Below are positions 35,059-58,650 of a stretch of 64,000 nt of DNA, piece after piece. The notes beneath the pieces were generated by a model. It did no database searches and was not told the DNA's origin. It worked only from the letters and a program-made list of their open reading frames with translations. Position numbers and translations under genes: made by a program. Position 1 is the stretch's first letter. Each line of letters begins with the position of its first letter. Source of the stretch: Anaerolineae bacterium (GTDB taxonomy: Bacteria > Chloroflexota > Anaerolineae > Anaerolineales > E44-bin32); NCBI GenBank assembly GCA_011174825.1, contig DUEZ01000075.1, forward strand, positions 104,507 through 168,506. Reading direction: 5' to 3'.

Positions 35059-35150
35059 TTGCTACCTCCTAGGAGGATGACCAAACGGACAGGAATGGTA
35101 ATTCGATTCTTCGATTCGGCAGATTAAAGGCAATACCATCTTACAAAGGA

Positions 35151-36347: not shown

Positions 36348-36382
36348 TCAGGCTAGAACGGTGCCAAGGTGAACGGCCTGGT

Positions 36383-36445
36383 TTGTCGTCCTGAGCGGGA
36401 CCTTCGGTTCCACCGATGGTCCCGAGCGAAGCCGAGGCGCTCAGG
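36383..36445. repeat. R4-type repeat inside the Hdr operon
   Basis: TCGTCCTGAGCgggacc-ttcggttccaccgat-ggtcccgagcgaagccgaggCGCTCAGG is an imperfect palindrome of the R4 class. It lies in the 249-base gap between the HdrA fusion and the CCG gene, which are otherwise in one operon, so it must be transcribed. Confidence 0.6.
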
Positions 36446-36596
36446 CCAGGTTCCGTGAAGCGAAGGATCTCGTTTTCAGAATTCAAATAATATTTCATCC
36501 CAACAACGAGATTCTCACCCTTCGGGTACGATGTCGGCGCTCCGCGCGCCTCAGAACGACATTAACAGATATGCTTTTTATAAATTGATTACTCCC

Positions 36597-39500
36597 TCAA
36601 TCGGAAGCGGGTTCGCTTTCAGTAGCCTTTTGAGGCAAATCGTTGGCATACCTCTGGAGAACCGCATCCATCTCTCGGATCTTTTCAGCGAACTCCTTAC
36701 CCTCTGCAGCGGAAACCCATTCCAACTGCAGCCGTTCCGGATCGATTCCCTTTCGTTTATATTTCCTTTGCCAGTGTTTAAAACGCTTGAATGTAAGACG
36801 ATTAGCATAATTGTAGTGACAATCGGATCCCGTCTCCGTCAATCGACATCCCGTAACGAGGACAGCCCCGGCCCCATTCTCGAAGGCGCGGTCGATGAAA
36901 TCCTCTTCAAACCGCGCGGAGCACATGGTTCGCACAATACGTGCCGAAGTCGGATATTGACGTTTTTCGATACCTGCCAGATCGGCACCAGCATATGAGC
37001 ACCAGTTACACGTGAAGACGATACATTTGTTTTCAGGTTGATTGACTAACGCCGCGTCGATTTGAGCCATGATTTGACTCTTCGTGAAGTAGGGCATCTC
37101 AATCGCATTGAAATTGCACTCAGCAGCACATGTACCACATCCCATACAAACGGCTTCTAAGATTCGAACCTTGCCTTCCTTGACCGGCCCAATTTGTTCG
37201 ATCGCCCCATAAGGACATACCTGAACACACCGCATGCATCCGGTACACAACTCCTCGTCCACATAGGCTGTCAGAGGTTCCTTCTCAATCACGCCCCGCG
37301 ACAGCAAGGCTCCTGCTTTTCCCGCAGCAGCCAAAGCCTGCGCCATGGACTCACGCACATCCTTAGGACCTTGAGCCGTACCAGCGAGATAAATCCCCTG
37401 TGATGCTGTTTCAGCCGGTCCCAGCTTGGGATGCAGCTCCATTAAGAAGCCATCCTCGCTTCGGGATAATTTCAATTGATCAACGACATTGTTTTCGCTA
37501 GGGCTCATCCCCACGACCAACACCAAGAGATCAGTCGGAATACGGATCTTAGCTCCAAGCAGGCTATCAAAAACTTCAATGTATTCCTCTGTGAATGTGA
37601 TCACCTCTTGTGGTCTCAAGTTGACATCGTAACGAAAGAATTGCACTCCCGCGCGCATCGCTTCTTCATAGATCTCCTCAGCCTGGCGACTATACGTGCG
37701 GATATCCTTGTAGAGGACACGGACTTTTTTACCCATCCGTCGAAGCCGTAGAGCTTGTGCGATCATTGAAGTGCAACAGTAACGCGAACATCCCATGCGT
37801 TCATGACGCGAACCAACACAGGCAATAAAAGTGACCCGCTCCGCATCCAATCCCCCCTGCTCCAGGTACCGTTCTAATTCTAAATTCGTGATCACCCGAG
37901 GATCTTCACCATAACCAAATTCCATTGGTTGGTAAGGCTCAGAACCTGTAGCAAGGAGCACTGCTCCAACAATTAACTCCGTACCATCTGTGAGCCTGAC
38001 ATGGAAGTCTCCGACAACACCGCGGATGGTCTCAACCTGTACTCCGAGGTAAGTTTTGACATCACTTTCGACGATCTCACGCTTTTTCACCTCTAAAAGG
38101 TGCTGTGCTTTGATCCCAGCTGGTGAGATGTCATCCAATTCTTTTAATAAACCACCTAGTGATGCTGATCGTTCAATGAGATGGGTTTCAAAACCCTGTC
38201 GCACCAACGATATGGCTGCGGTCATCCCGGCGATGCCCCCCCCAATAACCAAGACGCTCTGTGTTAATGGCAGCTCAGTGATCTCTAAGGGAACCAAAAG
38301 CCGCGCCTTCTCCACCGCCATCGCGACCATATCTATTGCTTTCGTAGTCGCGGCTTCCTTATCAAACTTGTGAACCCATGAATCCATGTTGCGGATGTTG
38401 GACATCTCCAGCAGAAACGGGTTCAGCCCGGATCTCATCAATACACCACGGAAAATGGACTCGTGTGTTTTCGGTGAGCAAGCTGCGATCACCACGCGGT
38501 TTATCCCCTCGGCTTTGATCGCTTCCTCAATCTCATGTTGCGTATTACCGGCACACGAAAACATCTGATCGGAGGTATAGACAACATCGGGCAAGGTAGC
38601 TGCATGTTCGACGACTCGTTTTACATCAACCACACCGGCGATGTTGCTCCCACAATGGCAAACGAAGACCCCAACGCGGGGTATTTCGATATCTTTCACA
38701 GGCTCGACTTGAATAGGCTCTGGCCAATAGCGATCCGTTAAATGCCCTAACGCCAACGACGCGGCGCCACTCCCTTCAGCAACGCTATCAGGGATATCTT
38801 TCGGACCCGTAACGCACCCTGCAGCATAAATACCCTGCCGACTCGTAACGATCAACCCGCCCTCTACTTCGAGCGTTCGAATGAACCCATCCGCGTCCAA
38901 CTCAATCCCCAAACGGTCCGCTAAATCCGCCAACCCTTCCGGTGGTGCAACCGCATTTGCTAGCACCACCATGTCGTAATCCTCCTTTACATTGACAGCC
39001 AGATCCGTGTCTTCGTAGTTGACATTAATTGAACCTGCTCCGTTGGCTGAGATGCGTGAGGGACGTCCGCGCAGAAATCTTGCACCAGCCTCCTCCGTAC
39101 GACTCCAGAAGCCATCAAAACCTTTCCCATAGGCTCGGATATCCATGAAAAGCACTGAGACATCCTCAATCCCGTGATCAAGAGCCTGATAAGCGTGCTT
39201 GATCGAATACATGCAGCAGAAACGCGAGCAATAACGGAAGAAGCGTTGGTCACGAGAACCCACGCAGAGGACAAAGAGGATATTCCTTGGATGTTCGCCG
39301 TTTGAGGGTCGGAGGATTTCCCCACCCGTAGGTCCAGCCGAATTGATCAACCGCTCAAACTCAAGCGCGGTCATGACATCCGGGTGGTCGCCATAACCGA
39401 ACTCCCGCAGCCTTCGTGGATCGAGGCTGTCGTAGCCGACCGCAACGACTATCGAACTCACCTCTCGGGTTAGGATCGACTCCCGCGGCTTAAGGAAATC

Positions 39501-40019
39501 AATCGCATCAGGCAAACAAGCCTGGCTGCATCGGTCGCATGGGAGATAGTTGGGTGGATCGTTGAGGCAGTGGTCGATATCAATGACGTAAGTCCCCGGG
39601 ACGGATTGAGGGATTGGCGTATAGATCGCTTTACGAGAAGCCATACCGGAGTCGAATTCACTCGGTAAAACGACAGGGCAAACTTCCGTGCAGTCATTGC
39701 ACCGCGTGCATGCATCGGTCACGAAGCGATTTCTCTGAAGAATGCGGACCCGGAAATCACCCGGGCCGCCTTCAAGACCATCCACCTCAGCCATAGAGAT
39801 GATCTCGATGTTAGGATGGAGATCGACCTCCGACATCTTCGGTGCCTCGATACAGATGGAGCAATCGAGTGTTGGAAAATTCTTATCCAGCACCGCCATA
39901 ACCCCACCGATCGTGGGTGCTCGCTCAACGAGAACGACCCGAGCTCCAGCGTTCGCCAAGTCGAGCGCGGCCTGGATCCCTGCGATTCCACCACCGATCA
40001 CGAGCACCGAGTCACTCAT
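36597..40019 (-). CDS. Giant HdrA-HdrA-ferredoxin-MvhD fusion flavoprotein (1140 residues)
   Basis: Domains in order: a first HdrA/QmoA-like flavin part (about 1-430) with VLVIGGGIAGIQAALDLANAG, a CTRCNDCTEVCP cluster motif and a CSRFCC element; a second, complete HdrA (about 440-920) that begins with VGVFVCHCGSNIAGVVDV and has its own VLVIGGGIAGMTAAISL and CSRYCC; two ferredoxin clusters (925-970; CTGCMRCVQVCPYG and CMGCGTCAAECN); and an MvhD domain (999-1118; FTCNWCSYAGADLAG ... MCSAR). It looks like QmoA and QmoB joined in one chain. HdrA flavins are known sites of electron bifurcation. Start ATG overlaps the korC stop. A very large but intact ORF with no frame break. Confidence 0.92.
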   Translation of the reverse strand: MSDSVLVIGGGIAGIQAALDLANAGARVVLVERAPTIGGVMAVLDKNFPTLDCSICIEAPKMSEVDLHPNIEIISMAEVDGLEGGPGDFRVRILQRNRFVTDACTRCNDCTEVCPVVLPSEFDSGMASRKAIYTPIPQSVPGTYVIDIDHCLNDPPNYLPCDRCSQACLPDAIDFLKPRESILTREVSSIVVAVGYDSLDPRRLREFGYGDHPDVMTALEFERLINSAGPTGGEILRPSNGEHPRNILFVLCVGSRDQRFFRYCSRFCCMYSIKHAYQALDHGIEDVSVLFMDIRAYGKGFDGFWSRTEEAGARFLRGRPSRISANGAGSINVNYEDTDLAVNVKEDYDMVVLANAVAPPEGLADLADRLGIELDADGFIRTLEVEGGLIVTSRQGIYAAGCVTGPKDIPDSVAEGSGAASLALGHLTDRYWPEPIQVEPVKDIEIPRVGVFVCHCGSNIAGVVDVKRVVEHAATLPDVVYTSDQMFSCAGNTQHEIEEAIKAEGINRVVIAACSPKTHESIFRGVLMRSGLNPFLLEMSNIRNMDSWVHKFDKEAATTKAIDMVAMAVEKARLLVPLEITELPLTQSVLVIGGGIAGMTAAISLVRQGFETHLIERSASLGGLLKELDDISPAGIKAQHLLEVKKREIVESDVKTYLGVQVETIRGVVGDFHVRLTDGTELIVGAVLLATGSEPYQPMEFGYGEDPRVITNLELERYLEQGGLDAERVTFIACVGSRHERMGCSRYCCTSMIAQALRLRRMGKKVRVLYKDIRTYSRQAEEIYEEAMRAGVQFFRYDVNLRPQEVITFTEEYIEVFDSLLGAKIRIPTDLLVLVVGMSPSENNVVDQLKLSRSEDGFLMELHPKLGPAETASQGIYLAGTAQGPKDVRESMAQALAAAGKAGALLSRGVIEKEPLTAYVDEELCTGCMRCVQVCPYGAIEQIGPVKEGKVRILEAVCMGCGTCAAECNFNAIEMPYFTKSQIMAQIDAALVNQPENKCIVFTCNWCSYAGADLAGIEKRQYPTSARIVRTMCSARFEEDFIDRAFENGAGAVLVTGCRLTETGSDCHYNYANRLTFKRFKHWQRKYKRKGIDPERLQLEWVSAAEGKEFAEKIREMDAVLQRYANDLPQKATESEPASD

Positions 40020-40555
40020 TGACCCGTCTCCATTTTGCGTGCGTATTCATAACCTGCGTTAAAAGCTTTCATGTTCAACTCAAGGACATTTTCCGGGATA
40101 GAGGTCTTGATCGCGTCTTCAATCGATTCACGCTCAACTAAATCTGTGGCCGCGGTGAAGAAACCCAACATAACAACGTTGGCTACAATCCTTCGCCCCA
40201 GATCTTCTGCCAGTTTGGTCGCAGGGACTTTGAGGCAAGTATCCTGTGGAGATGGCTCAACCAAATCCTCATCGATAATCACGATCGCTTCGGGTTTAGC
40301 TTCAGCTCGAAAACGCGAGTAGGCCTCTTGCGAAAGTGTGACGAGAACGTCCGCTTCTTGAACAAATGGGAAATCTATCGGTCGATCTGCAACGACCAGG
40401 TTTGTGCTCGAAGCACCCCCTCTCGCCTCAGGACCGTACGCCTGCGTCATGACCGCTTCCAAGCCATCGTACAAGGACACGGCCTTGCCTAAAATCAAGC
40501 CTGCTAAGCCGATACCTTGTCCACCAAAGCCCGCAAGACGGATTTCCACCCTCAT
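40016..40555 (-). CDS. korC: 2-oxoacid:ferredoxin oxidoreductase, gamma subunit (KorC-like)
   Basis: The 179-residue protein has the gamma-domain opening VEIRLAGFGGQGIGLAGLILGKAV and the YGPEARGGASSTNLVVADRPIDFPFVQEADVLVTLSQEAY block, which help CoA binding in the assembled enzyme. It overlaps korB by four bases upstream and the HdrA fusion downstream, indicating tight coupling of the oxidoreductase to the Hdr-type subunits. Confidence 0.92.
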   Translation of the reverse strand: MRVEIRLAGFGGQGIGLAGLILGKAVSLYDGLEAVMTQAYGPEARGGASSTNLVVADRPIDFPFVQEADVLVTLSQEAYSRFRAEAKPEAIVIIDEDLVEPSPQDTCLKVPATKLAEDLGRRIVANVVMLGFFTAATDLVERESIEDAIKTSIPENVLELNMKAFNAGYEYARKMETGQ

Positions 40556-41382
40556 TCAATATCCTCAAGTCTTACCGGCTGATAGGGTGCAAGATCACGA
40601 TCGACAAAGCGACCGACATAGATTGGTTGATCAGCTCGAAGGTCGATCCCAAGCTCATCGATAGGAGTCCCATCAGCGATGACGCAGCGTTCCTTGTAGA
40701 GCAACATTTCGTCCAAGCCTTTATCGATGTAATTCATCTTCCCAAAACCGACTGGACAAGGCACCAAGACTTCGACGAAGGAGAACCCCGGTTTACTAAA
40801 CATATACAGGATGTCACGTTTAAGTTGACGCACGTGAATTGTGGTCCAACGGGCAACGAAATTCGCTCCCGAAGCAGCTAACAAGTAAGGAAAGTTGAAG
40901 GGCAATTCAGGGCTTCCGTATGGCGAGGTGGTTGTCCGGGCACCAAAAGGCGTCGTTGGACCCAATTGCCCCCCGGTCATACCGTAATTGAAGTTGTTGG
41001 CACAAATGACGGAGATGTCAACATTCCGTCTCGCAGCATGGATCAAATGATTACCGCCAATTGCGGCTAAATCACCGTCTCCACTGAACACCGATACGGT
41101 AAGTTCTGGATTGGCGAGCTTCAGACCGACAGCAAATGGGATCGCTCGTCCATGGGTGGTGTGATACGAATCGATCTTCATATACCCAGCCACTCTGCCA
41201 GAACACCCGATCCCTGAAATCAAAACATGGTCGTCCCGAGGTATCCCCGAGTCAAGAATTGCCTGAGCATAGCAACGCATCGCGATCCCGATCCCGCATC
41301 CAGGACACCAGATATGGGGTATCCGATCAGAACGCAGGATAACATCCAAAGGATGACTGTCAACGTTGATGGGTGTCGTCAC
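40552..41382 (-). CDS. korB: 2-oxoacid:ferredoxin oxidoreductase, beta subunit (KorB-like)
   Basis: This 276-residue TPP-binding subunit has the CPGCGIGIAMRCYAQAI cluster motif, SGIGCSGRVAGYMKIDSYHTTHGRAIPFA, the thiamine diphosphate motif GDGDLAAIGGNHLIHAARRN...NNFNYGMTGGQ and CPVGFGKMNY with a further cluster Cys. The GQ(L)GPTTPFGARTTTSPYG region is typical of 2-oxoglutarate-type enzymes. The gene overlaps korA by 23 bases. Confidence 0.92.
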   Translation of the reverse strand: MTTPINVDSHPLDVILRSDRIPHIWCPGCGIGIAMRCYAQAILDSGIPRDDHVLISGIGCSGRVAGYMKIDSYHTTHGRAIPFAVGLKLANPELTVSVFSGDGDLAAIGGNHLIHAARRNVDISVICANNFNYGMTGGQLGPTTPFGARTTTSPYGSPELPFNFPYLLAASGANFVARWTTIHVRQLKRDILYMFSKPGFSFVEVLVPCPVGFGKMNYIDKGLDEMLLYKERCVIADGTPIDELGIDLRADQPIYVGRFVDRDLAPYQPVRLEDIE

Positions 41383-42532
41383 GCGTGGCTACCTCTCGGA
41401 TTGCCTTAAGAATGCGGTCGGGAGCCATCATGACCCCGCCAGCATGATAAACGCCAGTTACTGGTCGTCGTATGTGCCGCTCGACCTCGAGGGCCATCTG
41501 CCCTAAATTCATTTCGGCCACAATAAAAGAGTCCGCCTGATCAGCAAGCTTTTTAATTTGTTCAGCGGGAAATGGCCAAAGGGATACCAACCTCAAGAAT
41601 CCAGCGGGGATGCCCTCTTGCCTGGCATCCTTCACTGCCCGACGCGCTGACCGAGCTGTGCTGCCATATGCAATCACGACGATGCGCGCATCGTCCATGA
41701 AATGATCTTCCGTCCGTACAATGTTCTCCGCGTTGTGATTGATTTTTTCAACCAGTCGAGTGACTAAGCGATGGTGAGTTTCCGCGTCCATGTCAGGGTA
41801 GCCTTGTTCATCGTGTGTCAAACCAGTAAAGTGAACGCGATATCCCTCCCCAGCATGTGCTAGTGGCGGGACCAAATCAGGATCTTCAGCTAGAAAAGGC
41901 TCAAAGGAGTCTTTTTTCTTCGGATCCGGGCGTTTACGCTCCCATCGAGGAATCTGATCCTCTGGGGGAATCACAACGCGCTCTACCATGTGTCCCACCA
42001 CCTCGTCAGCCATGAGGAGTACTGGTACGCGGTAGCGATCAGCCACGTTGAAGGCATGAATCGTGAGGTCAAACATCTCTTGAGGAGACCATGGCGAGAA
42101 GGCTGCAAGCGCATAATCACCATGGGTGCCCCACCGGGCCTGCATCACATCCGATTGACCGGGTAATGTCGGAAGTCCTGTCGAAGGTGAACCACGCTGT
42201 ACGTTTACAACAACACAGGGAAGCTCCATCATCACCCCTAAGCCGATGTTCTCCATCATCAAGCTGAAACCTGGTCCTGATGTTGCAGTCATAGCGCGTG
42301 CGCCCGCTGCGGAAGCGCCGAGGATGGCGGCCATGCTTCCCATTTCATCTTCCATCTGGATGAAAACACCCCCGATCTCTGGGAAACGGTGGGCCAAACG
42401 CTCAGCGATTTCAGTTGAGGGAGTAATAGGATAGCCCCCGAAGAAGCGGCATCCTGCCGCAATGGCTCCTTCGGCGCACGCTTCATCACCTTGGAAAAAA
42501 TGCTTGCCTGTAAGCACACCCGAGGATGTCAT
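41360..42532 (-). CDS. korA: 2-oxoacid:ferredoxin oxidoreductase, alpha subunit (KorA-like)
   Basis: The 390-residue subunit has FFGGYPITPSTEIAERLAHRFP, QMEDEMGSMAAILGASAAGARAMTATSGPGFSLMMENIG and VNVQRGSPSTGLPTLPGQSDVMQARWGTHGD, all KorA signatures. The long hinge rich in Lys/Pro (about 205-240) is also typical of KorA, which accepts 2-oxoglutarate. Together with KorB/C/D it forms succinyl-CoA and reduced ferredoxin from 2-oxoglutarate, or the reverse. It starts with an ATGA overlap after korD. Confidence 0.92.
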   Translation of the reverse strand: MTSSGVLTGKHFFQGDEACAEGAIAAGCRFFGGYPITPSTEIAERLAHRFPEIGGVFIQMEDEMGSMAAILGASAAGARAMTATSGPGFSLMMENIGLGVMMELPCVVVNVQRGSPSTGLPTLPGQSDVMQARWGTHGDYALAAFSPWSPQEMFDLTIHAFNVADRYRVPVLLMADEVVGHMVERVVIPPEDQIPRWERKRPDPKKKDSFEPFLAEDPDLVPPLAHAGEGYRVHFTGLTHDEQGYPDMDAETHHRLVTRLVEKINHNAENIVRTEDHFMDDARIVVIAYGSTARSARRAVKDARQEGIPAGFLRLVSLWPFPAEQIKKLADQADSFIVAEMNLGQMALEVERHIRRPVTGVYHAGGVMMAPDRILKAIREVATRDDTHQR

Positions 42533-43539: not shown

Positions 43540-45072
43540 ATGGCTCGGCTACATGAATACCAAGGCAAGCCACTCCTAAACGAAAAGAAGATCAACATAC
43601 CGCAAGGCGGTCCCGCTAGCTCCCCCGGCGAAGCAAAAACGATCGCTGAAGAGATCGATGGTCCGGTGGTGATCAAAGGACAAGCTTGGCTGACAGGGAG
43701 AGCAGCTTTGGGTGCAATCCGTTTCGCAGAGACTCCATCCGAAGCTAGCGAAGCGGCCGCCGCTGTTCTTGGGATGAAGATCAAAGGCATTTCCATTGAC
43801 ACGGTGTTGGTGGAAGTGAAATTAGATATCGACCGCGAATTCTACGCTGGGATCATCATCGACGATGTATCCAAAGCGCCCATGGTGATCTTTAGCCGCA
43901 TCGGTGGCAGTGGAATTGAAGAGATTGCACAAGAGCATCCGGAAGCCCTGGCCCGAGCGGTGATCGACATAAGAACAGGCTTGCTCGATTATCAGGCTCG
44001 TGATCTGGTACGTCAGGTCGGGATACACGGCAAACTCCAACTGGAGCTAGGTACTTTGCTGACCCGTCTCTATAGCGTCGCTCGAAAATATGATGCGCGT
44101 TCAGCGGAGATCAACCCCATCGCACTTACAACGGATGGAAGACTATACGCAGCCGATTGTCGGTTAACCATCGATGACTACGCAGTCTATCGACATCCTG
44201 AGTTAGGGATCGAAATCGCACGTGAGTTTGACCGTCCACCAACACTCTTAGAGAAAATCGCGTGGCAGGTCGAGAAAAACGACTACCGAGGGACTTTCTA
44301 TTTCATACAATTAGAACAGGATTTCAACAAGGGTGAAGGCGTTATTGGGTTCCACGGTGCAGGTGGTGGAGGCTCGATGATGAGCATGGACGCGATTCTC
44401 AATCGCGGTTACAGGCTGGCAAATTTCGTCGACACCAGCGGCAATCCACCGGCCTCTAAGGTTTACCGAGCTGCGCGCATCATCCTCGCCCAAGAGGGCA
44501 TCGATGGCTATTTCGCCTCAGGTTCTGGCGTGGCATCGCAAGAACAGTTTCACAGTGCCCGAGGATTGGTGAAAGCCTTCATGGAGGTCCCGCTCACGGT
44601 TCCAGCTGTGATCCGGCTTGGTGGGAATGCTGAAGAGCGTGCGATCGCCATCTTGGAGCGGGCGCAGGAGCAAATCCCTGCTCCGGTGGAAGGGTATGGC
44701 AAAGATGACACCCCTGAGTTCTGCGCCAGCCGCCTAGATTCGCTCATCAAAGCTGTCAAAGCGCCGACTAAGAAACCATCTGGATTAGAGTATCCTCAAC
44801 TGCTAGAACCATATGCCTTCGAAACTGTTACCGGAGGGAGGGTTACGCTCGATCACAGTGCCTGCAGAGAATGTACATCGAAGGTGTGCATCGATACATG
44901 TGTGCCTGGAATCCTCAGCCTCGATGATGGCCTGCCCGTGTTGAATATCTCGGGTGAGGAAGCCAAGAAGGGTGGATGTATCGAGTGTTTGGCATGCGAA
45001 ATTGAGTGTTATTTTGAGGGTAATCGAGGAGGGCGCGTCGATCTTCCTCTACCTGAGTTGGACGAGCATTGA
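43540..45072 (+). CDS. SucC-like acyl-CoA synthetase beta subunit with C-terminal 2x[4Fe-4S] domain
   Basis: The start at 43540 (MARLHEYQGKPLL) fits the SucC family and has gtgagga upstream; the track adds four residues. Residues 1-400 form an ATP-grasp plus ligase_CoA layout: PVVIKGQAWLTGRAALGAIRFA, YAGIIIDD, EINPIALTTDGRLYAADCRLTIDD, GAGGGGSMMSMDAIL and ANFVDTSGNPPASKVYRAARIIL. The unusual part is residues 442-490: CRECTSKVCIDTC and CIECLACEIEC, two ferredoxin cluster motifs fused to the C-terminus. It would work with the SucD-like subunit as a succinyl-CoA or citryl-CoA synthetase. The function of the clusters is unknown; regulation by redox state or docking to Kor/Hdr are possible. Confidence 0.85.
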   Translation: MARLHEYQGKPLLNEKKINIPQGGPASSPGEAKTIAEEIDGPVVIKGQAWLTGRAALGAIRFAETPSEASEAAAAVLGMKIKGISIDTVLVEVKLDIDREFYAGIIIDDVSKAPMVIFSRIGGSGIEEIAQEHPEALARAVIDIRTGLLDYQARDLVRQVGIHGKLQLELGTLLTRLYSVARKYDARSAEINPIALTTDGRLYAADCRLTIDDYAVYRHPELGIEIAREFDRPPTLLEKIAWQVEKNDYRGTFYFIQLEQDFNKGEGVIGFHGAGGGGSMMSMDAILNRGYRLANFVDTSGNPPASKVYRAARIILAQEGIDGYFASGSGVASQEQFHSARGLVKAFMEVPLTVPAVIRLGGNAEERAIAILERAQEQIPAPVEGYGKDDTPEFCASRLDSLIKAVKAPTKKPSGLEYPQLLEPYAFETVTGGRVTLDHSACRECTSKVCIDTCVPGILSLDDGLPVLNISGEEAKKGGCIECLACEIECYFEGNRGGRVDLPLPELDEH

Positions 45073-45109
45073 TTTTATTAGCGGGTAAGTTATTAGAGTT
45101 GTTTCACAT

Positions 45110-47383
45110 ATGAGGCGGGATGTGATTCGATCAATTATATTGATCCTTTTCATGCTATCTGGTTTTCTATGTTCCTCGTGCACTTCAGAAACGATCGAAG
45201 TTCCAAGAGCTACCTTTTCAACCAGCTCAACATCCACTCATGAACCCACTCAAACACCGATGGGTGGTGGTTCGGGAAACATCGTGTTTTCTTCCTACCG
45301 CGAGGGTGAGTCAGAGATCTTCACCATAGACTTGGATGGATCGGGAATGATCAGGCTTACGGAGGACACCGCTCGATTGAACCAACCTACGTGGTCGCCC
45401 GATGGCAGTCACATCGCCTACGTCCGACGAGAATGGCCCACGAACCTGGAAATCTATGTCATGAAAGCCGATGGCTCGGATCAGATTCGCTTGACTCACA
45501 ACTTCCACGCGTTCGACATCGAGCCGGATTGGTCCCCCGATGGTTCGCAGATCGCATTCGCGTCTTCAATGTTTGGATATCTAGACATCTTCACGATCAA
45601 CCTTGATGACTTTCAACAAACCAGACTGACGGAAAATTGGGGTGTTGATTCAAGCCCCGATTGGTCCCCAAACGGCCAACAGATCGTTTATCGTTCCGAA
45701 CACAACGAGAACAACGAGATCTTCATCATGGACGCCGATGGATCAGCGAAAATAAATTTAACGAACCATCCCGCGAGTGATACAGATCCCGCTTGGTCGC
45801 ACGATGGGAGTAGGATCGCGTTTGTATCCGATCGAAATGAGTCCGAAGACATCTATGTGATGAACGCCGATGGCTCCAATCTTTTCCGACTCACGAACAG
45901 CCCAGCAAAAGACACCTATCCTGCCTGGTCACCTGATGGCAGGATGATTGCGTTCTATTCCGATCGAAGCGGGAACTTTGAGATCTACGTGATGGAAGCG
46001 GATGGTTCAAACCAGATCCCGATCACGGATCATGGGGATTTTGACGGCTTCCCTGATTGGGAACCTCAGCCGTCGGCTATTCAAACCATCTCCATTCAAC
46101 CACTTCATTCCGTCAATCCCGAAATCCTCTCCTGGCTTCAACAGAACGCATTTCTTATCCCGAGCATCACACCAAGAGCCGGTTACAATGATCTTCTACC
46201 CCTCAAGGAGGTCTTCGAGGAAGCTCGCTTCGTCGCATTGGGAGAAGCAGCTCTTGGAACAGTTGAATCCATTCGGATGAAGCATCTCATGGTGGAATTC
46301 TTAATTTCCGAGTTAGGATTTAATAAGATCATCCTCGCTATGGATTGGGAAACTGCAAATCAAATAAACCAATCAATTCAAGCTAACGATGACGATCTTG
46401 AGCAGATCTTAGCGGCTCTTGACCATGCGAGCTGGAGCACGGTAGAGATGCTTGATTTAATCAACATGCTGCGATCATATATTCAGTTCTACGATAGTCC
46501 CACGCGTCCAATCATCGTAAGCGGATATTACAATATCACGCCAGATCTCCCGATGGATCAGGTGATCCAATTCCTTGAACGGATAGATCCAGCGAGTGCT
46601 GAAATCGTTGTAAACCGCTATTCATGCTTCAGGAAATTCTACCCAAGCTGGTTTATGTACTCCGAAATACCGAATGAAGAAAAGGAATTTTGCAGTGAGG
46701 AGGTGCAATCGGTCCTTGATTATTTACGCTCCCAAAGGTCAGTATATGAATCCTCATTCACACCTGAGTATTATTCTTACGTCCTCTTAAGTGCTCAATT
46801 GGTAGCAAACTTTGAAGAGCAATATCGCGTCGAAGATCCTTGGCTCCGTGAATCACGCAGCAGACGCAACACCGCCGAGAGTATTCGCTGGCTGGGGGAA
46901 CAGGGCGGAAATGATGACAAAGTAATCTTACTAGGTGATAATTTCACTATCGCCGATTATGATCCATCCTTTTCCACTGGAAATCTCGCTAGCCAAGGTC
47001 ATCATCTGCAGGACTATTATGGGAAGGCAATGGTTGCCATTGGATTTGCCTTCCACTCTGGCGGGGTAAATGCGCGCAACTTTGGTATGGGCAGCCCGAT
47101 CATGGTACAACAAGTACAGCCTGCATCGGAGGGCTCCTTCGAGTGGGTCGCACACAATCTTGGCTGGCCCGCATTCATGCTCGACCTAAGAGAGATCGAT
47201 TTGGAGCAATTAGGAGCAGTCTGGTTGGATCAACCGCTCTATCTTCACAGCATAGGCGAGTTTTATCGTCGTAGTGATCCCGAAACCTATTTCTTTCAAT
47301 ACCACCTTCCTACTGCTTTTGACGCCATCCTTTATATCGATGAGGTGACCCCTTCTCACTTGTTGCCATCATCAGATGATTAA
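45110..47383 (+). CDS. Lipoprotein with TolB-like beta-propeller and catalytically degenerate erythromycin-esterase domain
   Basis: The 757-residue product has a signal with lipobox LCSSC. Residues about 50-320 contain six WD40-like PD40 repeats of the type WSPDGxxIAFxSxRxxxxxIYVMxADGSN. Residues about 350-750 resemble the erythromycin esterase fold (FVALGEAALGTVESIRMKHLMVEFLISELGFNKIILA ... AMVAIGFAFHSGGVNA). The two histidines expected in active esterases are gone: the GExxHG motif reads GEAALG, and the AHNxHI motif reads GDNFTI. A surface binding or scaffolding role is more likely than hydrolysis. It lies oddly between the two subunit genes of the CoA ligase. Confidence 0.8.
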   Translation: MRRDVIRSIILILFMLSGFLCSSCTSETIEVPRATFSTSSTSTHEPTQTPMGGGSGNIVFSSYREGESEIFTIDLDGSGMIRLTEDTARLNQPTWSPDGSHIAYVRREWPTNLEIYVMKADGSDQIRLTHNFHAFDIEPDWSPDGSQIAFASSMFGYLDIFTINLDDFQQTRLTENWGVDSSPDWSPNGQQIVYRSEHNENNEIFIMDADGSAKINLTNHPASDTDPAWSHDGSRIAFVSDRNESEDIYVMNADGSNLFRLTNSPAKDTYPAWSPDGRMIAFYSDRSGNFEIYVMEADGSNQIPITDHGDFDGFPDWEPQPSAIQTISIQPLHSVNPEILSWLQQNAFLIPSITPRAGYNDLLPLKEVFEEARFVALGEAALGTVESIRMKHLMVEFLISELGFNKIILAMDWETANQINQSIQANDDDLEQILAALDHASWSTVEMLDLINMLRSYIQFYDSPTRPIIVSGYYNITPDLPMDQVIQFLERIDPASAEIVVNRYSCFRKFYPSWFMYSEIPNEEKEFCSEEVQSVLDYLRSQRSVYESSFTPEYYSYVLLSAQLVANFEEQYRVEDPWLRESRSRRNTAESIRWLGEQGGNDDKVILLGDNFTIADYDPSFSTGNLASQGHHLQDYYGKAMVAIGFAFHSGGVNARNFGMGSPIMVQQVQPASEGSFEWVAHNLGWPAFMLDLREIDLEQLGAVWLDQPLYLHSIGEFYRRSDPETYFFQYHLPTAFDAILYIDEVTPSHLLPSSDD

Positions 47384-47397
47384 AACGAGATTAGCAT

Positions 47398-48309
47398 ATG
47401 TCTATCCTGATTGATCAAACAAAACGTGTTCTTGTCCAAGGCATCACTGGCCGTGAGGGGCGCGCCAGAGCGCAACTGATGAAGGAGTATGGAACGCAGG
47501 TCATCGCTGGCGTGACACCTGGCAAAGGTGACCAAGAAGTTGACGGTGTACCTGTCTTTGACACCATTCGAGAAGCTTGGGAAATCGTAGGTGAAATCGA
47601 CATCAGCGTTCTGTTCATCCCGGCTCCGATCGTGAAGAGTGCAGCATTAGAGGCGATCGATGCAGGGGTCAAACTCTTGGTCATCGTTCCTGATCGCGTG
47701 CCCATCTATGATGTCCTTGAAATCGCCGATGCTGCTCAAGCGGCGGAAGCCCAATTCGTAGGCCCCAATACCCTCGGTGTACTCTCGCCCGGGAAGGCGG
47801 TCCTGGGAATGATCGGTGGAAGAGCGGCCTCTGCACGTTCGTGGTTTATTCCGGGTCCGGTGGGGATAACCTCACGCTCTGGGGGAATCACCTCCTCCAT
47901 GGCTTATTATCTGGCCCAGGAAGGCATAGGAGCCACAACTCTCGTGCATGTCGGCGGGGACGTGGTTGTGGGGCTCCCTCACCCCGAGATCACTAAACTG
48001 TTCGAAAACGATCCCGAAACTGAAGCCATCGTGATGTTCGGAGAGATCGGCGGGGGTCAAGAGGAGCAAGTCGCTGATTTGGTGGAAGCAGGCGAGGTGA
48101 CCAAGCCGATCATCGCCTTCATCGGAGGAAAAGCCGCAAAGAGCGGGACACGCTTTAGCCATGCAGGTGCGATCATCGAGGGCGGTCGAGGGACCTATGA
48201 AGGAAAGGTCAATCGTTTGAGAGAAGTCGGTGTGACAGTCGTGGAGGCCTTCGGTGAACTACCCCAAGCGACGAAGGCCGTTCTCCAAAAACACGGGATG
48301 ATGAGATGA
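47398..48309 (+). CDS. SucD-like acyl-CoA synthetase alpha subunit
   Basis: This 303-residue subunit has the CoA-binding fold start [33 protein letters not shown], the [18 protein letters not shown] stretch, [20 protein letters not shown] and the phosphohistidine site FSHAGAI (His255). It carries the phosphate during ligation of succinate (or citrate) with CoA. The stop overlaps the start of the citryl-CoA lyase-like gene as ATGA. That is the same order in which these domains are joined in ATP-citrate lyase, so a citrate-cleaving or citrate-forming complex is plausible. Confidence 0.9.
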
Positions 48310-49082
48310 ACGAAACAACCTGGAAAACAGCGATCACAGAGATCAATCCGAACGAGGTCAGGCTTCGAGGATACCGAATCGATGAACTGATGGGTGAAAT
48401 CACTTTCGCCCAGTCTATTTTCTTGGCCTTGAAAGGTGAATTGCCCCCAGCAGGGGTTGCGAAAATGCTTGACGCTATGCTCGTGTCCTCGATTGACCAC
48501 GGAGCGACACCGCCATCAACAATCGCCGCGCGTACTGCTGTCTCAACCGGTGCCCCCCTCAACGCTGCTCTTGCAGCGGGGGTATTATCCATCAATCGCT
48601 ACCATGGCGCGGCAATTTATGACTGCATGGGCGTGCTTGAGGAAGGTCTAAGACTCGTGAGGGAAACGGGTAAGAATATGGAAACCATTGCGGCTGAACT
48701 CCTTGCGGAATACCAGGAGAAAAAGAAACGAATCGCCGGTTTTGGTCACCGCATACATTCCTCCGATCCAAGGACTGCCAAGCTGTTCTCCCTTGCAGAA
48801 ACGTTAAGTGTTGCTGATGATGGTGTGGCAATGATTCTGGCCTTGCAGTCGGCGTTCCGTGAATCTGGAAAGGACCTGCCGATTAACGTCGATGGTGCGA
48901 TCGCGGCTCTGCTCATTGATCTCGAAATGCCGCGCGAGTTAGCCAACGCCTTCTTTATTATGGCTCGCGTACCTGGATTGATAGCCCACATCTATGAAGA
49001 ACAAACTCGTGAGCGCCCGATGCGTCGAATCCATCCTTCGAATCATACATACGACGGCCCTGCGCCAAGGGATCTATCCTAA
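48306..49082 (+). CDS. Short citrate-synthase-like protein, citryl-CoA lyase type
   Basis: At 258 residues it is much shorter than citrate synthases (about 370-430) and matches the stand-alone citryl-CoA lyase size. Three catalytic positions can be aligned: His65 (SIDHGATPPSTIAAR), His100 (NRYHGAA) and Asp196 (INVDGAI). The arginine-rich RIAGFGHRIHSSDPRT block is present. The enzyme should split citryl-CoA into acetyl-CoA and oxaloacetate, or condense them. A succinyl/citryl-CoA synthetase alpha gene immediately precedes it with an overlap. It could alternatively act on a related tricarboxylic acid such as 2-methylcitrate. Confidence 0.82.
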   Translation: MNETTWKTAITEINPNEVRLRGYRIDELMGEITFAQSIFLALKGELPPAGVAKMLDAMLVSSIDHGATPPSTIAARTAVSTGAPLNAALAAGVLSINRYHGAAIYDCMGVLEEGLRLVRETGKNMETIAAELLAEYQEKKKRIAGFGHRIHSSDPRTAKLFSLAETLSVADDGVAMILALQSAFRESGKDLPINVDGAIAALLIDLEMPRELANAFFIMARVPGLIAHIYEEQTRERPMRRIHPSNHTYDGPAPRDLS

Positions 49083-49225: not shown

Positions 49226-49765
49226 ATGCAGAAAGAGTTAATCAAGCTCATCCCAGAGTTCAACGCCATTGAAGATGATGACCTACGTCAACGGGTCTTG
49301 GATGTCTGGACGGAAGCCATGGAGATCGGCGGGTGGACTGTAGATGATCTGCGTGAGTTGCCCTATACACTATTGGTAGAGGATGTGGATATCACCTTCC
49401 CCCAACATGTTAGCGTTGTCTGCCGTTTGTGTATCGCGATCGAATCGGTGCTCAAAAATACTTACGGTGAACGATACGAGATCAACCACAACACTCTAGT
49501 TGCAGGTGCCCTCTTGGCTGATGTAGGGAAACTGATCGAGTTTCGAAAGGTGGACAGTGATTATCAGTGGGCGAGCATGTACCAGTATCTGCGCCACCCT
49601 TTCACCGGAGTTGGTCTTTGTTTTAAGCACGAAATCCCGGAGGCGGTCATGCATGTCGTCGCTACGCATTCCTGGGAAGGGGATAAATTTAAACGACGCC
49701 CGGAATCAATCATCTTCCACCACGCCGATTTCACGGATTTTGATTTGACGAAGAATTGGGGGTAA
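49226..49765 (+). CDS. HD-fold protein with altered metal site
   Basis: The 179-residue protein has an HD-superfamily pattern: FPQHVSVVCRLC, ALLADVGKLIEF where active members have LLHDVGK, then HPFTGVGLCFKHEIPEAVMHVVATHSWEG and a late FHHADFTDFD. The His of the central HD pair is replaced by Ala, so normal two-metal phosphohydrolase activity is doubtful. It stands between the citryl-CoA lyase-like gene and the aconitase genes. I cannot name a substrate. gaggagag precedes the ATG. Confidence 0.7.
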   Translation: MQKELIKLIPEFNAIEDDDLRQRVLDVWTEAMEIGGWTVDDLRELPYTLLVEDVDITFPQHVSVVCRLCIAIESVLKNTYGERYEINHNTLVAGALLADVGKLIEFRKVDSDYQWASMYQYLRHPFTGVGLCFKHEIPEAVMHVVATHSWEGDKFKRRPESIIFHHADFTDFDLTKNWG

Positions 49766-49864
49766 ATAATTGGGCACTTAAGCACCAGGGCGTTTGACCT
49801 TGATGATTCTTGAACTATTCAGTGATAATCTGATCAATAGAAAGTATCAATGATAGGGAGAAGC

Positions 49865-51121
49865 ATGGGACAGACTTTTGCAGAGAAAATCCTGGCCAAG
49901 AAAGCCGGGGTGAAGAAAACACAACCAGGCGAGATTGTAGAGGTCGCTCCCGATGTCGCTCTTTCACACGACAATACGGCTGCCATTTATGAGATTTTCA
50001 AGCGAATGGGAGGCGAGAGCGTATTTGACCCGGGAGTACATGCCATTTTCCTCGACCATGCCGCACCAGCACCAACGACGAAACACGCTGAAAACCACCA
50101 CCTCATCCGTCAATTTGTGCAAGATCAGTCTATCCCACACTTTTACGACGTTGGTCGTGGAATTTGTCATCAGGTCTTAGTCGAGGAGGGCTTGGCTCTC
50201 CCTGGTGAGTTGGTCTTGGGCTCTGATTCACATACCCCACATGCAGGTGTGATGGGTGCTTTCGCGGCAGGGATCGGTCGCAGTGAGATGGCTTCCATCT
50301 GGGCGCTCGGTAATCTTTGGTTGCGTGTCCCTGAGACCATGAAGATCATCGTTAAGGGACAACTTATGGAAGGCGTGACATCCAAGGATCTGGCGTTACA
50401 CGTCATCGGAGATTTAGGTAGTGATGGCGCTCTCTACATGTCGGTCGAATGGCATGGCGATGGTGTCGAAGCACTTAGCCTTGCAGAACGTGCGGTTTTA
50501 CCCAATATGACGGCAGAGATGGGCGCAAAGAACAGCTACCTCCCTCCCGATCAGGTGGTATTCGATTATCTCAACCAGAGAGCCAAGCGTTCCTACGAAC
50601 CGATCTTGCCCGATCCAGACGCTCAATATGCGATGGTAAAAGAATATAAATCCGCGGAGATCGAGCCATTGATCGCCTGTCCTCATACCGTGGACAATGT
50701 GAAACCCCTCTCTGAAATCGCCGGCACACACGTTGACCAAGCATTCCTGGGGACATGCACCAACGGCCGCTTGGAAGATTTGGCCATGGCTGCAGAGGTG
50801 TTATCCGGTCGACAACTGGCGAAGGGCACTCGAATGATCGTCATCCCTGCTTCTTCGGAAGTTTACAAAGAAGCTTTACTCGCAGGATACATTGAGGTTT
50901 TCCTCAGCGCAGGTGCCATCGTGGAAAGCCCTGGTTGTGGACCATGCATGGGTAACCACATGGGCGTACCTGCTGTTGGTGAAGTCACCATCAGCAGCGC
51001 CAACCGGAACTTCCGGGGTCGCATGGGTACCAAAGATAGCGAGATTTATCTAGCGAACCCTAAAGTTGTCGCTGCCTCGGCTGTTGCGGGTGAAATCATC
51101 CATCCAAAGGATCTACAGTGA
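49865..51121 (+). CDS. Aconitase/3-isopropylmalate dehydratase family, large subunit (LeuC-like)
   Basis: The start at 49865 ([15 protein letters not shown]) has agggagaagc upstream; the track adds five residues. The 418-residue protein has [42 protein letters not shown], and the cluster ligands [17 protein letters not shown] and [14 protein letters not shown] for one [4Fe-4S]. LeuC-type two-subunit enzymes isomerise isopropylmalate, homocitrate or citrate. In this neighbourhood (IDH, lyase, Kor) citrate/isocitrate is the natural substrate, but the sequence alone cannot rule out leucine synthesis. Confidence 0.9.
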
Positions 51122-51648
51122 TGAATGCAAATTTCGTGATCAAAGGTCGCGTTTGGAAATATAGCGATAATGTCAATACAGATGTGATTTTCCCTGGCAA
51201 GTACACCTACACCGTCAGCGACCCAGCTGAAATGCCGCAGTACGCGCTTGCAGACTTGGATCCTAACTTCGCAGAACAGGTCCAACCTTTTGACATCATC
51301 GTGGCGGGAACCAATTGGGGCTGTGGCTCTTCGCGGGAGCAAGCTGTGACGTGCCTCAAGGAAAGTGGATTAGGGGCCATTGTAGCGAAATCTTTCGCCA
51401 GGATTTACTACCGCAATTGCCTCAACGCTGCGCTTCCGGCTTTGATCAGTCCTGATGCAGTAGACGCGATTCAGGACGGTGAGATCATCGAGATCAACTT
51501 GCAACGAGGCGAGATCCACTGCGCGGCCGGGACATTCACCTTTCCCCCACTGCCTGAGACGGTGATGAAGATCTTCGATGTCGGTGGATTGATACCTTAT
51601 ACACACCAAAGATTAAAAACTCAGAAGGAGGGCCAGAAAAAGGGCTGA
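51118..51648 (+). CDS. Aconitase/3-isopropylmalate dehydratase family, small subunit (LeuD-like)
   Basis: This 176-residue swivel subunit has [20 protein letters not shown] and [46 protein letters not shown]. The GCGSSREQA loop binds substrate. It starts with GTG at 51118 or ATG at 51121, overlapping the large subunit stop. Together they form the active dehydratase. Confidence 0.9.
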
Positions 51649-51679: not shown

Positions 51680-52930
51680 TTGACACAAAAACACAATGGG
51701 CAAAGCACCTTGAAAAGAGACCGGGAAAATTCTAGCAATTCGATACAGGGAACAACCACATTAAGATCCTTATGGAAAGCAATCTTCTGGGTTTCCTTCC
51801 CCTTTGGTATCCTCTCGTTCGTCCTACCCATTTACGGCAAAGATTTAGGAGCCTCCGCCCTTGAGATCGGAGGCTTCTTCTCCGCCATGTCCGTTGTACC
51901 TGTTATTGTGCGACCCTTTCTTGGCCGAGCGCTAGACAAGTGGGGGAGGCGTCCATTTCTTCTGATTGGACTGTTCAGCCATGCAATAGCCATGGTTGCG
52001 TTCTCTTTCTCGAGCACGGTCGTTCTGCTGACTGGCGCTCGGTTTGTGCAGGGCTTAGGAACGGCTTTCCTCTGGCTGACGGCTTACACGATCGTCGCGG
52101 ATAAGGCAAAAGAAACAGGACGCGGCCATAACTTTGGCCTCATTGACGAAGCCGCAAATCGGGGTGCGATCATCGGCACGACAGCAGGTTTTTTAGCGCT
52201 TTTTGCCCTATCGAATGTTGAATGGAGATACATTTGGTTCTGGCTATTCTTTTGTTATGGGATATTCTCACTTTTAGGTTTTTGGTACGGCTGGCGTGGT
52301 GTCGGCGAAACCCGGCCAACGGACGTTTCTCCGCGGGCAGAAAGTCGTCCCATTTCAGGTCAGTTGCTGGCGCTAATGGGCATCATTTTCATCACCGGTG
52401 CATCCACTGCCATGGTCTGGCCACTGCTTATGGTCTTTCTGCAAGACATCCTTCAAGCAGAGATATGGGCGCTGGCCTCCGCTTATCTCCCGGCCGCATT
52501 GCTCAGCGCTTATCTCCCCTCACACATGGGGAAGATCGCTGATCGATGGGGACGTAAACCGCCTATGATCGCTGGTCTGGTGATAGGAGCCATCGCATCC
52601 GCGCTGATCCCCCATCTACGGAGCATCATTGGACTAGCAACTTTGTGGGCAGTTGAATCGCTGGGATACGTCACCTCTCTACCAGCAGAACGAGCTTTCG
52701 TCGCTGACATCGCCGGAGAAGACGTCCGCGGAACAAGTTATGGACTCTATACCTTCGCTTATTTCCTTGGGGCAGTGCTTGGGCCATTGGTTGGTGGATG
52801 GTTGTATGACACCTATGGGCATGGAACGCCGTTTTATCTCAATGCAGCAGTTCTGCTTCTCGGAGGTCTATTGGTCGCGATCATTTTACGTGAAACCAAA
52901 CCGAGTCAAACCCTTGTGACAAGGATTTGA
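51680..52930 (+). CDS. Major facilitator superfamily transporter
   Basis: The 416-residue product has about twelve membrane helices and the MFS loop motif VRPFLGRALDKWGRRPFLLIG between helices 2 and 3, with a second copy (GKIADRWGRKPPMIAGLVIG) in the other half. The track start is a TTG with a weak ribosome-binding region; an internal start is possible because the first 30 residues are polar and unconserved in appearance. Placed between aconitase and IDH genes, it may carry a di- or tricarboxylate, but this is only positional evidence. Confidence 0.85.
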   Translation: MTQKHNGQSTLKRDRENSSNSIQGTTTLRSLWKAIFWVSFPFGILSFVLPIYGKDLGASALEIGGFFSAMSVVPVIVRPFLGRALDKWGRRPFLLIGLFSHAIAMVAFSFSSTVVLLTGARFVQGLGTAFLWLTAYTIVADKAKETGRGHNFGLIDEAANRGAIIGTTAGFLALFALSNVEWRYIWFWLFFCYGIFSLLGFWYGWRGVGETRPTDVSPRAESRPISGQLLALMGIIFITGASTAMVWPLLMVFLQDILQAEIWALASAYLPAALLSAYLPSHMGKIADRWGRKPPMIAGLVIGAIASALIPHLRSIIGLATLWAVESLGYVTSLPAERAFVADIAGEDVRGTSYGLYTFAYFLGAVLGPLVGGWLYDTYGHGTPFYLNAAVLLLGGLLVAIILRETKPSQTLVTRI

Positions 52931-52967: not shown

Positions 52968-54086
52968 ATGACAAAATATCGTATCGCTTGGATGCCAGGC
53001 GATGGCATTGGTGTGGATGTGATGGAAGCCGCACGGATTGTCCTGGACGCACTGGAACTTGACGCAGAATATGTTCCGGCAGATATCGGTTGGGAGTTTT
53101 GGTGCCGAGAAGGAAATCCGTTACCTCAACGGACGATTGATATTTTGCAGACTTGCACCTGCGGGCTTTTCGGTGCCATCACATCAAAACCCAAGGACGA
53201 AGCTGCATTAGAACTAGCACCTGAACTGCAGGGTAAAGGGCTAACATACAGTAGTCCGATCGTAGGCCTACGTCAATTATTCGACCTTTACACGAATCTG
53301 CGCCCATGTAAAGCTTATCCAGGCAACCCTCTCAATTACCGTGACGACATCGATCTCGTTGTCTTTCGTGAAAATACCGAGGGACTTTACAGTGGAGTGG
53401 AATTTCACCCCCTTCCTGGTGAGCTTCGGACGATCATGACGAAATATAACCCTAGGATGACGCGCTTCGAAGACATCCCAGGGGATGAAATTTCCGTGAG
53501 CTTAAGAGTGATCACCATGAGGGGGGCAAGACGCATCATCAAGAAAGCCTTTGAGTATGCTCGTCAGTATGGTTACCCAACCGTGACACTTGTTGAGAAG
53601 CCGAACGTGTTGCGCGAAACTAGCGGAATGATGACCCGCGTCGCGCGGACAGTGGCCAAGAATTTCCCACAGATCGAACTTTGGGAGACGAACATCGACG
53701 CGCAGATGATGTGGCTGCTCAAGAATCCAGACGATTACGGTGTGATCGTAACCAGCAACATGTTCGGTGATATCGTCTCTGACCTTTCAGCACAGCTCGT
53801 GGGTGGTCTTGGCTTCGCTTCAAGCGGCAATATCGGCGATGATTTCGCTGTTTTTGAGCCCACCCACGGCTCGGCACCGAAGTACGCCGGACAATACAAG
53901 GCAAACCCTACCGCTATGCTGCTTGCGGTCAAGTTGATGCTCAATTGGCTAGGTGAGACAGAGATGGCCGAAGCGCTAGAGACCGCGATTGCTAAGGTGA
54001 TTGCAGAAGGCAAAGTACGCACCTACGATATGGGTGGGGATAGTTCAACGCTAGAAGTAGCACATGCTATTGTGGAAAAGCTGTAA
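52968..54086 (+). CDS. Isocitrate/isopropylmalate dehydrogenase family enzyme, probably NADP-isocitrate dehydrogenase
   Basis: The 372-residue enzyme has MPGDGIGVDV, the substrate block LYTNLRPCKAYPG, FRENTEGLYSGVEF, a YGYPTVTLVEKPNVLRETSGMM segment and TSNMFGDIVSDLSAQLVGGLGFASSGNIG. The coenzyme loop reads HGSAPKYAGQYKANPTA: the Lys-Tyr pair equals the NADP-binding residues of E. coli Icd, while NAD enzymes have Asp-Ile or similar there. It should convert isocitrate to 2-oxoglutarate, or reductively carboxylate it, feeding the Kor enzymes encoded nearby. Confidence 0.87.
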   Translation: MTKYRIAWMPGDGIGVDVMEAARIVLDALELDAEYVPADIGWEFWCREGNPLPQRTIDILQTCTCGLFGAITSKPKDEAALELAPELQGKGLTYSSPIVGLRQLFDLYTNLRPCKAYPGNPLNYRDDIDLVVFRENTEGLYSGVEFHPLPGELRTIMTKYNPRMTRFEDIPGDEISVSLRVITMRGARRIIKKAFEYARQYGYPTVTLVEKPNVLRETSGMMTRVARTVAKNFPQIELWETNIDAQMMWLLKNPDDYGVIVTSNMFGDIVSDLSAQLVGGLGFASSGNIGDDFAVFEPTHGSAPKYAGQYKANPTAMLLAVKLMLNWLGETEMAEALETAIAKVIAEGKVRTYDMGGDSSTLEVAHAIVEKL

Positions 54087-58649: not shown

Positions 58650-58650
58650 C

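Follow-up and report, generated by a model that had tools for sequence, protein, structure and literature searches.

A split candidate system of ATP-citrate-lyase type with a ferredoxin-like ligase tail in an Anaerolineae genome

To our knowledge, citrate is cleaved or made with ATP by only a small number of systems, namely ATP-citrate lyase, the pair of citryl-CoA synthetase and citryl-CoA lyase (CCS/CCL), and reversed citrate synthase. In Hydrogenobacter and other Aquificae, CCS/CCL is encoded by three separate genes (CcsA, CcsB, Ccl). The same domain order is found in AclA/AclB of Chlorobium and in human ACLY, and the fusion of the SucD-like part with the lyase is typical of AclA. In the literature searched, the nearest case is the planctomycete OTU-14, in which the split CCS/CCL genes bore the annotations succinyl-CoA synthetase and citrate synthase, CcsB and Ccl are fused in relatives, and carbon monoxide dehydrogenase/acetyl-CoA synthase (CODH/ACS) is present in the genome (PMC5459899). 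Here, a gene trio was analysed in the window, the whole stretch of 64,000 nucleotides from contig DUEZ01000075.1 of an Anaerolineae bacterium. The + strand carries genes for a SucC-like ligase beta subunit (43540-45072), a SucD-like ligase alpha subunit (47398-48309) and a citryl-CoA-lyase-like protein of 258 residues (48306-49082). Judged from sequence, the trio is rather probably a split, reversible ATP-citrate-lyase-like system, with citrate as the predicted substrate.

The beta-alpha-lyase gene order and the overlap of the last two genes, described in an earlier sequence-only reading of the window, were confirmed: the four bases ATGA are shared by the end of the SucD-like gene (48309) and the start of the lyase-like gene (48306). 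A gene of 757 codons between the SucC-like and SucD-like genes had not been mentioned there. Like the Aquificae system, the trio consists of three separate genes with the same folds. In a comparison with OTU-14 made by description only, the window likewise has split genes with fused relatives and its genome also carries CODH/ACS-like genes, but no ferredoxin tail was reported for OTU-14 (PMC5459899). On balance, the trio would represent a distinct branch of citrate-cleaving systems, working like CCS/CCL and ATP-citrate lyase and standing outside the Aquificae set.

The lyase and the ligase subunits

The lyase-like protein scored above the cut-off of the NCBIfam citryl-CoA lyase model NF004869 (269.7 bits, cut-off 212) and its best PDB match was the citryl-CoA lyase of Hydrogenobacter thermophilus (6HXP, E=1.8e-57). 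These values place the family match far beyond chance and bear out the assignment made in the sequence-only reading. The protein is not a full-length citrate synthase, which was defined as a PF00285 protein of about 360-430 residues: the Pfam PF00285 match of its 258 residues spans only profile positions 165-355. H100, H148 and D196 were aligned with H274, H320 and D375 of pig citrate synthase, so the catalytic residues proposed earlier were recovered, and R156, R221 and R240 were aligned with arginines of citrate synthase and 6HXP. The roles of these residues are known from the citrate synthase family, where the three arginines bind both carboxylates of oxaloacetate. The Hydrogenobacter lyase, the nearest solved relative, has the same catalytic residues, but the signature of the window lyase, HR(I/V/Y)H..DPR, is one residue shorter than HRYYKDFDPR of Ccl. 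The SucD-like protein retains the phospho-histidine motif SHAGA (H255).

Translation of the SucC-like gene likely starts at ATG 43540, as the resulting sequence, MARLHEY..., resembles the start of known SucC proteins; GTG 43528 is the alternative, outermost opening codon, and the residue numbers are counted from the ATG. The protein consists of an ATP-grasp domain, a substrate domain and a C-terminal ferredoxin-like tail of the 2x[4Fe-4S] type. The substrate-domain motifs were GGGGS (275), GNPPA (301), GSGVASQEQF (328) and RLGGN (359). The first two are common to the SucC-like protein and CcsA (6HXQ), whereas SucC has NGAGLAM and GGGA in their places; the overall fold, the ATP-grasp domain, the phospho-histidine and the Leu of the RLxG motif are shared with SucCD. 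In the Pfam search, the domain after ATP-grasp matched Citrate_bind with 29.3 bits (cut-off 26.8; the homologues L042 and L083 were just below the cut-off) and no Ligase_CoA match was obtained. In contrast, the ordinary SucC of the same genome matched Ligase_CoA with 104 bits and did not match Citrate_bind. The Citrate_bind score of the CcsA-like protein of the relative G042 (locus L104) was 108 bits.

The tail comprises about 85 residues with cysteines at positions 442, 445, 450, 454, 480, 483, 486 and 490, all of which were kept in 26 of 26 relatives, WOR-3 included. Its best matches, all weak, were Fer4 domains and OorD (PDB 8YS5_D, E=0.0096; NCBIfam OorD, E=1.3e-4), the ferredoxin subunit of 2-oxoglutarate oxidoreductase. 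The tail may serve as an electron-transfer contact, a sensor or a structural element. With a mean pLDDT of 62.5, and of about 30 in the tail, the AlphaFold model of the SucC-like protein was not reliable enough for docking or a fold search. No description of a tailed ligase variant was found in the literature searched.

In the protein trees, the tailed group was placed outside the ordinary SucC and SucD clades (each 100/99). The H. thermophilus CCL was grouped with the lyases of G042 and G091 at 100/99, apart from the tailed-cluster lyases, and the tailed-cluster SucD proteins were likewise separated from the Ccs group. By these trees, the SucD-like and lyase proteins form clades of their own, distinct from the Aquificae set and from ordinary SucCD. 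In the SucC tree, the tailed group was closer to SucC than to CcsA (98/95), and a grouping of the tailed large subunits with CcsA/AclB was not rejected (p-AU 0.098); the CcsA and AclB references in this tree were partial sequences taken from PDB alignments, both with long branches. The sequence-only reading had equated the three proteins with CcsA/CcsB/Ccl. This is not supported, as the window proteins stand apart in the trees of the lyase and of SucD, and the CcsA pocket motifs are shared only in part. The other comparison, with ordinary SucCD, left the ligase outside those clades.

Gene context and genome content

Lyase relatives were found in 49 of 298 genomes in a class-wide scan. The SucC, SucD and lyase genes were contiguous in about 25 relatives, in many of them with genes for an HD-domain protein, aconitase and isocitrate dehydrogenase (IDH) added, and this six-part block recurs in several families of the class. 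The window's family and G250/G298 shared the order SucC-SucD-lyase-HD-LeuC-like-LeuD-like-(MFS)-IDH-PrpD. A second LeuCD-like pair occupied the PrpD position in G113, G031, G126 and G199; G320 had two LeuCD-like pairs with the IDH gene farther away, and the WOR-3 block consisted of SucC-SucD-lyase-HD. In one related family (G189, G278, G045, G172), SucD and lyase were joined in one open reading frame of about 565-590 residues, which is the architecture of AclA. The window itself differs from AclA/AclB and ACLY in its separate SucD and lyase genes and its distant sequence.

The genome of the window (G000) encodes a full-length citrate synthase on contig C82, beside genes reading as CODH/ACS, and ordinary SucCD on C36; these were the two enzymes which the sequence-only reading had advised to look for. 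AcnA and an NADP-type Icd (C24) and a flavoprotein of succinate dehydrogenase/fumarate reductase (SDH/FRD) were present as well. As the one-contig relative G002 also carries citrate synthase, AcnA, Icd, SucCD and SDH/FRD, the second citrate set of G000 is not a contamination.

No full-length citrate synthase was found in G113, G320 and G298, which belong to three families (92-95% complete, 5-6% contamination). All their aconitases were located in or near the cluster, and so was the only gene of the isocitrate dehydrogenase family, save a fragment in G298. In these genomes the module would thus be the sole visible branch from acetyl-CoA to 2-oxoglutarate. Single absences in metagenome-assembled genomes are uncertain, and the argument lies in the fact that these three genomes, each of a different family, show the same picture. 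The SDH/FRD flavoprotein match (PF02910) was absent in G113, G031, G250 and G009, so that in G113 the module would stand outside any closed cycle. As to the closed reductive or reversible tricarboxylic acid cycle of the sequence-only reading, candidates for citrate cleavage, 2-oxoglutarate oxidoreductase and SDH/FRD are encoded in G000, alongside citrate synthase, AcnA, Icd and SucCD, and a reductive cycle in this genome is no more than possible.

Proposed reactions and alternatives

According to the favoured reading, the SucC/SucD-like pair would use phospho-His255 to act as a citryl-CoA synthetase (citrate + CoA + ATP <-> citryl-CoA + ADP + Pi), and the short protein of the citrate synthase fold would act as a citryl-CoA lyase (citryl-CoA <-> acetyl-CoA + oxaloacetate). 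Citrate and isocitrate would be interconverted by two hydro-lyases: a PrpD-type enzyme, encoded in the window by an MmgE/PrpD-family dehydratase gene (54227-55603, +) that is replaced by the second LeuCD-like pair in other families, and a LeuCD-type enzyme, assigned by profile matches to an aconitase/LeuC-HacA-type large subunit (49850-51121, +) and an aconitase/LeuD-type small subunit (51118-51648, +). An enzyme of the isocitrate/isopropylmalate dehydrogenase family with the NADP-type motif THGSAPKYAG (52968-54086, +) would connect isocitrate with 2-oxoglutarate. Further conversion to succinyl-CoA and low-potential electrons could be carried out by a divergent KorA-KorB-KorG operon that lacks its own gene for a ferredoxin subunit (40016-42532, -) and is followed by genes for HdrA (HdrA2 class), an HdrC-like Fe-S protein and EtfAB (33246-40019, -). 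This 2-oxoacid:ferredoxin oxidoreductase (KOR) is of the 2-oxoglutarate type (OGOR), since the best family of KorB was the 2-oxoglutarate:ferredoxin oxidoreductase beta subunit and KorA scored 285 bits to the OGOR 8YS5 vs 69 bits to pyruvate:ferredoxin oxidoreductase; the type fits a route from isocitrate to 2-oxoglutarate. A second KOR with a fused gamma-alpha and a beta subunit is encoded at 57597-60489 (-). Hence the aconitase, IDH and two KOR sets noticed near the trio in the sequence-only reading were all found, and the trio belongs to a conserved unit with aconitase, IDH and OGOR-type KOR.

The substrate, the partners and the direction of the predicted system are what we infer from these data. 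In the relatives without another citrate-forming enzyme, the reactions would probably run towards citrate with a gain of ATP, as with the ATP-citrate lyase of Desulfobacter postgatei, for which Moller et al. reportedly proposed an ATP-saving, citrate-forming role in 1987 (cited in PMC9768450). In the window's genome, where citrate synthase is present, the trio could run to cleavage as the citrate-cleaving step of a reductive cycle. A more daring and rather doubtful extension is that the OorD-like tail of the ligase supplies the ferredoxin subunit which the divergent 2-oxoglutarate oxidoreductase lacks, physically coupling the citrate/ATP step to low-potential electrons or gating it by them, in an independently evolved ATP-citrate-lyase lineage in which the fused form also arose. 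If the favoured reading is true, the origin of ATP-citrate lyase would be sampled once more, in a distinct split lineage that has a fused relative, lineages now called 'succinate-CoA ligase' and 'citrate synthase' by standard annotation would be added, and the synthesis of citrate and 2-oxoglutarate would be explained in bacteria with no other recognisable citrate-forming enzyme.

The observations behind this reading are the gene content and its conserved order, the catalytic residues, the separate place in the trees and the missing alternatives in some relatives. Several observations weigh against it. The SucC-like protein has IRLGG where CcsA, AclB and ACLY carry VRR, and no tailed SucC retains the second Arg of VRR, which aligns with human Arg379; Leu or Ile takes its place. 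The loop matching ACLY 343-348 is unlike that of CcsA: instead of an ANNTR/ANN-type sequence, it has GSGVASQEQ, which is private to the tailed SucC group and invariant there. The IDH has Ile at the position of Asn115 of isocitrate dehydrogenases, and it is unusual for citrate to be handled by two separate hydro-lyases. Given the citrate synthase, AcnA, Icd and SucCD of G000, the module is redundant there as far as ordinary citrate metabolism is concerned. The fused SucD-lyase genes have no adjoining aconitase, and in G278 and G045 their neighbour is ADP-ribosylglycohydrolase-like. GNP-type ligases of relatives also adjoin HMG-CoA-lyase-like, CitE-like and other lyases, and the 'citryl-CoA lyase' models also match unrelated contexts, e.g. 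a threonine-synthase fusion; neither the ligase type nor the lyase match therefore proves citrate.

The strongest alternative, although clearly less probable than citrate, keeps the chemistry and changes the acid. The substrate would be a homologue of citrate, such as homocitrate, citramalate or a different 2-hydroxy acid formed from acetyl-CoA plus a 2-oxo acid. It would be elongated or degraded by the hydro-lyases and the LeuB-like dehydrogenase, and a KOR would take the 2-oxo acid that results. The Leu in place of Arg379, the private loop, the conserved pair of hydro-lyases and the other lyases beside paralogous GNP ligases all agree with such a substrate. The LeuCD/LeuB-like proteins score towards the homoaconitase and homoisocitrate dehydrogenase families, and the IDH has Ile/Val at positions which, as known from the family, are hydrophobic in isopropylmalate dehydrogenase. 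However, the lyase retains the three arginines that in its family bind the oxaloacetate carboxylates, the divergent KOR is of the OGOR type, and the genomes with the module alone would have no visible route to citrate. A leucine or homocitrate pathway is also missing. Ketol-acid reductoisomerase was not found in G000, G002, G113, G320 and G298. HMGL-family synthases were not found in G000, G002 and G113, the last having no HMGL-family enzyme at all, and the sole HMGL-family match of G320 and G298 was a carboxylase-like protein of 510/511 residues. By these absences, an isopropylmalate/leucine role of the LeuCD/LeuB-like genes was discarded. A 2-methylcitrate role was rejected on chemical grounds, because the isomer is a tertiary alcohol which IDH could not oxidise, and the conserved IDH would idle.

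A further alternative, judged unlikely, is that the genome has a second succinyl-CoA synthetase in this ligase, which might dock to the 2-oxoglutarate oxidoreductase via its tail, with the lyase as an unrelated neighbour. The scores to SucC and SucD (232 and 287 bits) exceed those to CcsA and CcsB (118 and 168 bits), and both the SucC tree and the weak OorD matches of the tail point in the same direction. On the other hand, ordinary SucCD was already present in G113, G320, G298 and most genomes checked, the substrate domain matches Citrate_bind and misses Ligase_CoA, the lyase gene overlaps that of SucD and is joined to it in one family, and the grouping of the tailed ligases with CcsA/AclB was not rejected. 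A true Aquificae CcsA/CcsB/Ccl member, transferred and fused to a ferredoxin, is very improbable: GGGGS, GNPPA and the 6HXP match would agree with it, but the lyase and SucD trees place the Aquificae proteins elsewhere, the Citrate_bind score is far below that of L104, and the full CcsA motif set is found in the G042/G091 ligase instead, so membership was rejected.

The inserted gene, other neighbours and related loci

The 757-residue product of the gene between the ligase subunit genes (45110-47383, +) has a lipoprotein-like start and, by Pfam, a TolB-type propeller and an erythromycin-esterase domain. Its copy in G002 was 62% identical, compared with about 88-94% for the neighbouring genes, and it was absent from G004 of the same genus and from the other relatives compared. 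It is thus a recent local insert outside the conserved module; within the genus, two species have it between the genes of the ligase subunits. The HD-domain protein (49226-49765, +) gave no match in the PDB search. It is kept beside the lyase as far as WOR-3. In the window's family, alanine stands in place of its HD histidine (LADVGK). A transporter of the MFS type (51680-52930, +), recognised by eye from its sequence, is found in part of the family.

What appear to be genuine CcsA/CcsB/Ccl genes, with all of the CcsA motifs, were detected outside Aquificae in G042 (L104:4409-7327) and G091 (L109:2473-4728; ligase gene cut by the contig end). In L186:8618-15068 and L187:7973-14465, a SucC/SucD-like pair was accompanied by HMG-CoA-lyase-like and PrpF-like genes and a LeuCD-like pair, possibly representing another catabolic route with a CoA ligase and a lyase.

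Relatives of the lyase were also seen in other surroundings. A single open reading frame, L102:564-2630 (-), combines an N-terminal threonine synthase with a C-terminal citryl-CoA-lyase-like domain. In the Aminicenantes loci L038, L041, L046 and L047, a close relative of the lyase directly follows S-adenosylmethionine synthetase- and adenosylhomocysteinase-like genes, with no ligase or aconitase in these loci. Remoter relatives (L094, L099, L100, L110) adjoin ADP-forming acyl-CoA-synthetase-like and ADP-ribosylglycohydrolase-like genes, and, where the sequence was read as far as the C-terminus, the last arginine is missing. Tandem pairs of citrate-synthase-fold genes with changed GHR or NVDGA motifs (e.g. 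PALGVSD, LDMLGA) were found in L111:3984-5959 and L112:8550-10501.

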